This document shows, piece after piece, positions 45,915-49,411 of a stretch of DNA of 64,000 bases. The first letter of the stretch is position 1. Every line of letters begins with the position of its first letter. The notes beneath the pieces were generated by a model, which was not told the DNA's origin, did not search any database, and saw nothing but the letters and a program-made list of their open reading frames with translations. This stretch comes from Owenweeksia hongkongensis DSM 17368 (GTDB lineage: Bacteria; Bacteroidota; Bacteroidia; Flavobacteriales; Schleiferiaceae). Both the position numbers and the translations under genes were made by a program. Location: the NCBI RefSeq assembly GCF_000236705.1, contig NC_016599.1, forward strand, positions 2,108,001 to 2,172,000. The letters are read 5' to 3'.

Positions 45915-47738
45915 ATGTCGCACACAGAAGTTCTTCAAAAGGTCACCATTCATTTTGCTGGTGATTCAGGAGACGGAATTCAACTGGCTGGAAGCCAATT
46001 CACCAATACCACTGCCCTACAGGGGAATGACCTCAGCACATTTCCGGATTTTCCGGCTGAGATTCGTGCGCCTATAGGTACCGTGGCTGGTGTTTCTGGT
46101 TTTCAAATTCACTTTGGAAGTGTAGAGATTGACACTCCCGGAGCTGAGCCTGATGTGCTTGTAGCCATGAATGCCGCTGCTTTTAGTAAGAACTTCAAAA
46201 ACCTGAAAAAGGGCGGAACCTTAATTGCCAACGAAAGTGGGTTTGATAAGCGCAATTTGCGTTTGGCAAAAATGGATGAGAATGTAAATCCTCTTGTGGG
46301 AATAAATTCCTCTGATTATAAAGTTCTTCGCGTAGATGTAACCGCGCTAAACCGTGAGGCAGTAAAAGACCTAAGCCTTGGAAACAAGGAAAAAGATCAA
46401 TCGCGCAACCTTTTTGTGCTAGGTTTGATTTACTGGCTCTACCACAGAAGTTTGGAGCCCACTCTTAATTTCTTAACAGATAAGTTTCAAAAGAAACCGG
46501 AGATACTCGAGGCTAATATTCGCGCCTTAAAAGCAGGTTATCATTATGGTGAAACCATAGAAGCTGCCACAAGATACACGATTGAAAAAGCACACCTTGA
46601 GCCTGGTGAATACAGAAATATAGTAGGAAACGAAGCTTTGGGATTAGGATTAATAACAGCTGCAAAAAAGTCGGGACTGGACTTATATTTTGCTGGCTAC
46701 CCGATTACCCCTGCTTCTGATATTCTTCATTTTCTTTCCAGAAATAAAAACTTTGGTGTAAAAACCTTTCAGGCAGAAGATGAAATTGCTGCCGTAACTG
46801 CTGCCATCGGAGCATCTTTTGGTGGAGCATTAGCCGTTACCGCCACTTCTGGTCCAGGAATGGCTCTAAAAGGCGAAGCGCTTGGTTTGGCTTTGATGCT
46901 GGAAATTCCGCTGGTAATTGTAAATGTACAGCGTGGTGGCCCATCCACAGGATTGCCCACCAAAACTGAGCAGGCTGATTTGCTTCAGGCATTGTATGGT
47001 AGAAATGGCGAAGCGCCCATTCCGGTAATTGCTGCCAATTCACCTTCGGATTGTTTTGAAACAGCCATTGAAGCTTGCCGAATTGCTGTGGAGCGCATGA
47101 CACCCGTTATCCTTTTATCCGATGGATATTTGGCAAACGGTGCCGAACCTTGGAAATTTCCAAAAGCAGCAAGCATTGCCAAGATTACTCCTCCTTTTGC
47201 AAAAGGAGAAGAATACCAACCTTATGCAAGAAATGAAAATCTTACCCGCCAATGGGCTATTCCCGGTATGGCCGGAAAAGAGCACAGAGTAGGTGGATTG
47301 GAAAAAGAAGCTATTACAGGAAATGTAAGCTACAGCCCGGAAAACCATGAGCAAATGGTAAAAACCCGTGCGGAAAAAGTGGCTAAGATTGCTGATACCT
47401 ATTCTCCATTAAAGTTTGTCCAAGGTGAGGATAAAGGAAAAGTACTCGTAGTTGGTTGGGGCAGTACCATGGGCGCTTCAAAAGTTGCAGTTCGTTGGGC
47501 GAGAGAAGCAGGATTATCCGTTTCTCAGTTGCACCTCAAAAATCTTTTCCCTTTCCATCATAATTTGGAAAAATCACTTGCTAAGTTTGATACCATAATT
47601 GTGCCTGAACTTAACAATGGTCAGCTTTCCAAAGTATTGAATCAAGAGTTTTCAGGACAAATTATTCCTTTAAATAAAATACAAGGGTTGCCTTTCAGAG
47701 CAAAGGAAATCTTTGAAGAAATAAAAAAATTCGCCTAA
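45915..47738 (+). CDS. korA: 2-oxoacid:ferredoxin oxidoreductase, alpha subunit with fused gamma domain (KorA-like)
   Basis: Together with KorB this enzyme oxidises 2-oxoglutarate (or another 2-oxoacid) to the acyl-CoA with reduced ferredoxin, or runs in reverse. The 607 residues join a gamma domain (about 1-190, FAGDSGDGIQLAGSQFTNTTALQGNDLSTFPDFPAEIRAP) to the alpha domain (YFAGYPITPASDILHFLS, EDEIAAVTAAIGASFGGALAVTATSGPGMALKGEALGLA, NVQRGGPSTGLPTKTEQADL). 2-oxoglutarate is the most likely substrate from the overall type, not proven. korB follows but is separated by a 640-base RAYT element. Confidence 0.92.
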   Translation: MSHTEVLQKVTIHFAGDSGDGIQLAGSQFTNTTALQGNDLSTFPDFPAEIRAPIGTVAGVSGFQIHFGSVEIDTPGAEPDVLVAMNAAAFSKNFKNLKKGGTLIANESGFDKRNLRLAKMDENVNPLVGINSSDYKVLRVDVTALNREAVKDLSLGNKEKDQSRNLFVLGLIYWLYHRSLEPTLNFLTDKFQKKPEILEANIRALKAGYHYGETIEAATRYTIEKAHLEPGEYRNIVGNEALGLGLITAAKKSGLDLYFAGYPITPASDILHFLSRNKNFGVKTFQAEDEIAAVTAAIGASFGGALAVTATSGPGMALKGEALGLALMLEIPLVIVNVQRGGPSTGLPTKTEQADLLQALYGRNGEAPIPVIAANSPSDCFETAIEACRIAVERMTPVILLSDGYLANGAEPWKFPKAASIAKITPPFAKGEEYQPYARNENLTRQWAIPGMAGKEHRVGGLEKEAITGNVSYSPENHEQMVKTRAEKVAKIADTYSPLKFVQGEDKGKVLVVGWGSTMGASKVAVRWAREAGLSVSQLHLKNLFPFHHNLEKSLAKFDTIIVPELNNGQLSKVLNQEFSGQIIPLNKIQGLPFRAKEIFEEIKKFA

Positions 47739-47748
47739 GTAACCTATG

Positions 47749-47774
47749 CTGCCGCGCGGCTGTGTCGCGTGTGC
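47749..47774 (+). repeat. Left REP-like inverted repeat of the RAYT element
   Basis: This GC-rich 26-mer begins CTGCCGCGCGGCTGTG and ends CGCGTGTGC. It contains the palindrome GCCGCGCGGC. It begins 11 bases after the korA stop. Confidence 0.8.
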
Positions 47775-47798
47775 CAACTAAAATTTTAAACTACCCTC

Positions 47799-48350
47799 TT
47801 GAGTCGAAACTACAAATTCCGAAACCCCGAAGGGGCTTACTTTATAAGCTTTGCGGTAGTAGAATGGGTGGATGTATTTGCTTATGACCCTTACAAAGAT
47901 ATAGTGGTGGATAGTTTGAGGTATTGTCAAAAAGTGAAAGGGCTAGAAATATTTGCATGGTGCATTATGAGCAACCATGTGCATCTTATGATACGTGCTG
48001 GTGGTAAATCTACACTTTCTGATATCCTAAGAGACTTTAAAGCTTTTACGGCTCGGCAACTTCTTAAAGTGATTAGTGAAAAGCCCAATGAAATAAACAG
48101 TCAAAGGATGCTAGATACTTTTGCAAAAGCTGGGGCTAAATCGAGCAACGTAAAAAATTATCAACTTTGGCAGCATGACAACCAACCAATTGAGGTTTAT
48201 AGCAATCATGTTATCCAGCAAAAATTGAATTACATCCATCAAAACCCAGTTAAAGCGGGTTTTGTTAGAAACCCTTGGGACTATAAGTATAGTAGCGCCA
48301 AAAATTATGCAGGAGAGAAAGGAGAACTGGAAATAATATTAGTCGGATAA
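47799..48350 (+). CDS. REP-associated tyrosine transposase (RAYT, Y1/HUH type)
   Basis: The 183-residue protein starts at TTG. It has the HUH metal motif in WCIMSNHVHLMIRAGG (about residue 50-65), a helical middle (LSDILRDFKAFTARQLLKVI), and the catalytic-tyrosine helix IQQKLNYIHQNPVKAGFV, then YKYSSAKNYAGEKGELEI. This is the IS200/IS605-related family that processes single-stranded REP hairpins. The frame is intact. The inverted REP-like repeats on both sides are its probable substrate. Confidence 0.9.
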   Translation: MSRNYKFRNPEGAYFISFAVVEWVDVFAYDPYKDIVVDSLRYCQKVKGLEIFAWCIMSNHVHLMIRAGGKSTLSDILRDFKAFTARQLLKVISEKPNEINSQRMLDTFAKAGAKSSNVKNYQLWQHDNQPIEVYSNHVIQQKLNYIHQNPVKAGFVRNPWDYKYSSAKNYAGEKGELEIILVG

Positions 48351-48364
48351 TGATATGTTACTTT

Positions 48365-48390
48365 GCACACGCGGCACAGCCGCGCGGCAG
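48365..48390 (-). repeat. Right REP-like inverted repeat of the RAYT element
   Basis: This is the inverted copy of the left repeat (25 of 26 bases), reading GCACACGCGGCACAGC then CGCGCGGCAG on the plus strand. It ends 16 bases before the korB ATG, so in the mRNA its hairpin lies close to the korB ribosome-binding region. Confidence 0.8.
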
Positions 48391-48406
48391 CAAAAAATAA
48401 ATTGAG

Positions 48407-49411
48407 ATGAGCACAAACGCAACCCTTACAGCAAAAGATTTTGCCACCGACCAAGATGTTCGATGGTGCCCTGGCTGTGGTGATTACAGCATATTGAAAC
48501 AGATGCAAACCGTTCTTCCAGAACTTAGGATAGAGCGTGAAAATTTGGTGTTTATTTCTGGAATTGGTTGTAGCTCACGTTTTCCATATTACATGAATAG
48601 CTACGGTATGCACAGTATTCATGGGCGTGCACCAGCTGTGGCGGCAGGGCTAAAAGCAGCAAACCCAGATCTAAGCGTATGGGTAATTACCGGTGATGGC
48701 GATGGACTTTCTATTGGTGGAAATCACCTCATTCATGCTTTACGCAGAAACTTCGACATCAATATCCTTCTCTTTAATAATGAGATTTATGGCTTAACGA
48801 AAGGACAATATTCTCCAACTTCTGAATTAGGAAAATACACTAAGTCTAGCCCGCTAGGGAGCATTGACCACCCTTTCAACCCATTGGCTTTGGCGCTTGG
48901 CGCTGATGCTACTTTTGTAGCTCGTAGCATGGATCGCGACCCTATTCACTTGCGTGAAATATTGAAACAAGCTGAACAGCATAAGGGAACTTCCTTTGTG
49001 GAGATTTACCAAAACTGTAACGTATTTAATGATGGTGCTTTTGAACAGTATACCGACAAAAAGCAAAAGCCAGATACCACCATCAATCTTGTAGAGGGCG
49101 AACCATTATTTTTTTCCAACAACACAAAGGCTATGCGCCTGAATGGTTGGAAACCCGAAATAGTAGAATACTTAGACGGAGATTCAACCGATGACTTGTG
49201 GATTCACGATTCTAAAGACCCCATGAAAGCGCATTTGCTAAGCCGCATGTTTAGCGATGATGGTCCACGTCCTTTCGGTATCTTTTATCAGGAAGATAGA
49301 TTCATCTACGAGGATGCCATGCAAAACCAAATCAACAAAGCCATAGAAATACAAGGCGAAGGCGATTTGGATACTTTGATAAAAGGAAAAAACAGCTGGG
49401 TGGTGGAGTAA
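48407..49411 (+). CDS. korB: 2-oxoacid:ferredoxin oxidoreductase, beta subunit (KorB-like)
   Basis: KorB binds thiamine diphosphate and an iron-sulfur cluster. The 334 residues show RWCPGCGDYSILKQMQ with the first cluster cysteine, ISGIGCSSRFPYYMNSYGMHSIHGRAPAVAAGLK, and the TPP motif GDGDGLSIGGNHLIHALRRN with NNEIYGLTKGQYSPTS. SLMDRDP-type residues and VEIYQNCNVFNDGAF follow. It pairs with korA but is now separated by the RAYT element. No clear promoter of its own was found, so it may depend on transcription through that insertion. Confidence 0.93.
   Translation: MSTNATLTAKDFATDQDVRWCPGCGDYSILKQMQTVLPELRIERENLVFISGIGCSSRFPYYMNSYGMHSIHGRAPAVAAGLKAANPDLSVWVITGDGDGLSIGGNHLIHALRRNFDINILLFNNEIYGLTKGQYSPTSELGKYTKSSPLGSIDHPFNPLALALGADATFVARSMDRDPIHLREILKQAEQHKGTSFVEIYQNCNVFNDGAFEQYTDKKQKPDTTINLVEGEPLFFSNNTKAMRLNGWKPEIVEYLDGDSTDDLWIHDSKDPMKAHLLSRMFSDDGPRPFGIFYQEDRFIYEDAMQNQINKAIEIQGEGDLDTLIKGKNSWVVE

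Follow-up and report, generated by a model that had tools for sequence, protein, structure and literature searches.

A lineage-specific RAYT unit with inverted REP-like ends between korA and korB of Owenweeksia hongkongensis

The window analyzed here is a 64-kb stretch of the genome of Owenweeksia hongkongensis DSM 17368. It contains korA and korB, which encode two subunits of a 2-oxoacid:acceptor oxidoreductase and are both intact. The two genes are separated by 668 bp, within which lies a complete gene for a REP-associated tyrosine transposase (RAYT) framed by inverted REP-like ends (Table 1). The protein scored 104.4 bits against the NCBIfam model NF047646 (REP_Tyr_transpos; cut-off of 80 bits) and matched the Pfam domain Y1_Tnp. 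The arms of the inverted repeat are 89% identical over 38 nt, with 25 identical positions among the outer 26 nt, and the repeat scores 26 where shuffled flanks yield a maximum of 9. These results bear out the preliminary description, which had reported a complete RAYT with 26-base inverted ends at this place and all three genes pointing in the same direction.

Table 1. Features of the kor locus and related loci of the host genome. The unit, korA and korB follow window numbering; other loci follow genome numbering where marked.
Feature	Position	Strand	Remarks
korA, 2-oxoacid:acceptor oxidoreductase subunit alpha (N-terminal gamma domain)	45915..47738	+	TIGR03710; intact
Inverted-repeat arms	47747..47784 and 48355..48392		38 nt each
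Left REP-like end	47747..47772	+	GCTGC guide and hairpin with G.T pair; R1 model, 34.0 bits
RAYT gene leader	47773..47798	+	26 nt; without TAnnTTTG promoter motif
RAYT gene	47799..48350	+	183 aa, intact, TTG start; motifs NHVH (from residue 59), WQ (from 124), YIHQNP (from 145); motif table of PMC6006769
Right REP-like end	48367..48392	-	inverted copy of left end (25/26); 34.1 bits
A-rich korB leader	48393..48406	+	from unit to korB start
korB, 2-oxoacid:acceptor oxidoreductase subunit beta	48407..49411	+	TIGR02177; intact
Second RAYT (L002)	genome 2829839-2830384; L152:3828-4385	- (L152)	own, different inverted ends
Truncated RAYT (L153)	genome 430161-430555		about the first 27 codons; one REP end kept
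Solo copy of the stem of the truncated RAYT's end	genome 209519
REPIN-like inverted hairpin pairs	genome 923572-923654, 1953924-1953999, 1287095-1287164
IS110-family transposase copies	genome 772396 and 3297678		equal scores

Judged from its sequence, the RAYT protein fits subclass 2.6, which corresponds to Bertels group 5. This subclass was described by Quentin et al. (2018) as mostly found in Bacteroidetes, low in copy number and flanked by "atypical" hairpins that lack GT[AG]G (PMC6006769). The kor-locus RAYT shares its motifs (NH[LIV]H, WQ and YIH[QN]NP), its approximate length (about 179 aa), its phylum, its low copy number and its flanking atypical hairpins. Relative to the published account, the ends are resolved here into a single design, GCTNS followed by a stem with a fixed G.T pair, and the present analysis adds the borders of the units, empty sites and a bias in orientation. 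The subclass was also reported to have copies of its hairpin elsewhere in the genome (PMC6006769); here, the unit's own stem has none, and the hairpins that are present share its design and have different stems. The protein stays below the cut-off of the IS200 family, with 29.9 bits against NF033573 (cut-off of 55 bits), and no Rfam match was found within the window. A foreign base composition was rejected, the GC content (37.9%) and GC3 (34%) of the RAYT being like those of host genes, and a plasmid search returned five distant matches only.

Three further known systems are close to the unit. As in the E. coli and Stenotrophomonas REPtrons, where tnpAREP is accompanied by GTAG REPs, and as in the original description of RAYTs, the gene of an HUH/Tyr protein lies between inverted REPs (PMC2817692), but the unit has neither the GTAG guide nor scattered cognate REPs and does not occupy an ancestral site. 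It shares a Y1 HUH transposase and end hairpins with IS200/IS605 elements, from which it differs in that its ends form one inverted pair and no tnpB adjoins it. Finally, TIRYT units also present a Y1 gene framed by inverted repeats, but these belong mostly to subclass 2.1, carry HTH tails and have another repeat consensus (PMC6006769).

Both ends begin with GCTGC, and the GT[AG]G guide of classical REPtrons (groups 2 and 3) is absent from them. Within the window, the strand on which folding is best is + for the left end and - for the right end. The preliminary description assumed that RAYTs are usually single-copy domesticated genes with scattered REPs. We found no solo copy of the 26-mer in the genome: allowing 2-3 mismatches, it occurs only at the two ends of the unit, and the same holds for a 17-mer of the end with at most two mismatches. 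A search of 148 genomes of the order returned one further match to the end, in a relative and with 3 mismatches. The family model did detect twelve more REP-like hairpins in the host genome (E<0.1), all of which have other stems, and relaxing the threshold added three inverted pairs. The scattered REPs of this genome are thus not copies of the kor unit's own end, and the assumption is wrong for this Bacteroidetes subclass, whose units appear to move whole.

No cognate RAYT was found in the genome for the REPIN-like pairs. The stem of the end kept by the truncated RAYT recurs as a solo copy, and this genome evidently once housed other RAYTs that have since decayed. The second RAYT, 57% identical to that of the kor locus, lies in a codirectional cluster (flippase-dut-RAYT-nucleotidyltransferase-TPR). 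The genes dut and nucleotidyltransferase adjoin in most relatives; a clean empty site was rejected in this case because two further ORFs lie at this place. Two copies of an IS110-family transposase were also found.

For comparison among themselves and with the loci of the relatives, 80 RAYT loci were taken from named genomes. Most of them are framed by an inverted repeat scoring well above shuffled flanks. Fifty distinct ends whose loops measure 3 nt could be aligned, and they share the form GCT-N-S plus a stem of 9 bp. Covariation across these ends reaches 0.722 (0.204 when shuffled), and a G.T pair occupies one stem position in 49 of the 50; on the opposite strand, this pair turns into an A.C mismatch. 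The ends were chosen with a hairpin filter, which inflates the percentage of paired positions, but this filter explains neither the exchanges of paired bases nor the constant position of the G.T pair. The ends fall into two types, GCTNC and GCTNG; on the tree of RAYT proteins, the type changes 3 times, compared to 20.6 when shuffled. Such a pattern would be expected from proteins that each recognize the end of their own unit.

The history of the locus was traced in the relatives that possess both korA and korB at one locus (n=24). The two genes are separated by -14 to +34 bp in all 24, three congeners included: they overlap in 15, lie 1-5 bp apart in 8 and are 34 bp apart in one. The congeners present gaps of 2 bp (G001 and G003) and 1 bp (G002). 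Among these, only G003 possesses a full RAYT match, which is 57% identical and sits at another locus. The shared location that characterizes a domesticated, vertically inherited tnpAREP is therefore not observed, since the site is empty in 24 of 24 relatives. As sampled, the kor insertion is specific to the O. hongkongensis lineage, and the gene is not an old fixed resident of this site. The preliminary description had named two observations that would count against its reading, namely a gene present here in all relatives (an old fixed arrangement) and a repeat without other copies in the genome; only the second is found. The unit is accompanied by approximately 8 and 14 nt of flanking sequence, which the 2-bp spacer of the congeners does not account for, so that the exact insertion point is not readable.

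Evidence on how such units spread came from closely related copies. Near-identical units were found in unrelated surroundings, with similarity ending at the paired hairpins: L104 and L115, both from metagenome assemblies, are 97.7% identical; L065 and L072, from Marinifilum isolates, 95.7%; L062 and L087, 88%; and L010 and L015, located in the same genome, 87.6%. Judged from these borders, the unit appears to move as a whole. A 2021 paper on groups 2 and 3 states that evidence of tnpAREP mobility is lacking (PMC8266576); for subclass 2.6, the borders of the units and the empty kor site constitute such evidence, although it is indirect.

The direction of the kor-locus RAYT follows a family habit, as RAYTs are in line with their upstream gene at 114 of 134 non-redundant loci and at 71 of 75 loci of the nearest relatives. 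Expressed as the strands of the upstream and downstream genes relative to the RAYT, the 134 loci comprise 81 ++, 33 +-, 12 -- and 8 -+ cases, and sense strongly outweighs antisense within codirectional neighbors (p about 1e-13). The nearest relatives (55, 16, 4 and 0, in the same order) and the more divergent set (26, 17, 8 and 8) both contribute to these counts. Within this phylum, transposases of the DDE_1 and IS110 families present no bias (13, 9, 10 and 10). They were used as controls in place of IS200, which was dropped with 10-12 usable loci (5 ++ and 5 --). Neighboring genes were called by longest ORFs, which is crude but identical for cases and controls. Our limited search of the literature found no prior report of such a bias, which is apparently new for this class. 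It could be caused by retention through read-through, by selection against antisense copies or by strand-specific insertion. The Bacteroidetes -7 motif TAnnTTTG was found in 29 of 82 RAYT leaders when 3.9 were expected. Many RAYT units thus probably carry their own promoter, and read-through would not always be needed.

Together, these results lead us to propose, with a probability of roughly 0.83, that a subclass 2.6 unit inserted at the korA/korB junction in one piece, was most likely moved by its own protein and can be read through from the kor promoter. The unit of ~646 bp (left REP, tnpA-REP gene and inverted right REP) would have entered the junction after the O. hongkongensis lineage parted from the sequenced congeners. 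We infer that the HUH/Tyr protein most likely recognizes the ends of its own unit when these are single-stranded and folded into hairpins, using the strand that presents the fixed mismatch as G.T, and that it would cut and rejoin these ends to move the unit. Since the RAYT gene points in the same direction as the kor genes, a transcript started at the kor promoter could then traverse the unit to yield RAYT and korB mRNA. Indeed, no intrinsic terminator was found at the ends of the unit or within it, which makes read-through from korA into korB plausible, as the preliminary description had suggested. Sigma-70-like sites are no more frequent in the unit than expected by chance, and its Bacteroidetes-type -33/-7 sites lie inside the gene, whose leader measures only 26 nt.

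Alternatively, a foreign segment might have brought the unit in by recombination, or another transposase might have moved it. RAYT genes are assumed to pass horizontally on occasion (PMC6006769), and the kor-locus RAYT forms a lone branch on the protein tree, its nearest counterpart being ~60% identical. Moreover, neither the host genome nor the 148 genomes of the order contain a second copy of the unit, so that its own movement is seen through empty sites only. This scenario is unlikely, however: the inserted DNA consists of the unit and ~22 nt only, and other units present the same borders.

It is also conceivable that the insertion was kept for an effect on the kor genes, with either the right hairpin or the passage through the unit adjusting the ratio of korA to korB or stabilizing korA mRNA. 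The overlapping or 1-5 bp ancestral junction suggests a translational coupling that the insertion would have broken, and the GC-rich hairpin of the right arm does stop just before korB, ~15 nt from its ATG, as the preliminary description had noted. Yet the fold of the korB leader is no stronger than that of shuffled sequences (z-score of -0.25), the unit offers no terminator and its orientation is the usual one of the class, with nothing special to kor. This possibility is unlikely too, slightly more so than a foreign arrival. An old domesticated RAYT lost from the relatives examined is the least credible scenario and highly improbable: RAYTs of other groups do behave much as housekeeping genes would, and the literature describes tnpAREP as immobile (PMC8266576), but the present distribution is strongly contrary and would need clean losses remaking overlapping or 1-5 bp junctions in nearly all 24 relatives.

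The kor-locus element is a real, lineage-specific insertion of an already known kind of element, and it shows that an operon of central metabolism tolerates a transposase unit of 646 bp where the genes for two subunits of the same enzyme meet. Where previous work states that evidence of tnpAREP mobility is lacking (PMC8266576), the empty-site comparison and the unit borders indicate that one class of RAYTs moves as a unit. More tentatively, and at somewhat less than even odds, subclass 2.6 RAYTs may generally be whole-unit transposons, contrary to the view of tnpAREP as immobile, and their insertion or retention may be coupled to the direction of transcription: copies would arrive or persist chiefly at sites downstream of a gene and in the same direction as it, which sets them apart from other IS of the phylum. 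The orientation bias, which DDE and IS110 elements of this phylum lack, suggests that the persistence or targeting of RAYTs is linked to transcription.
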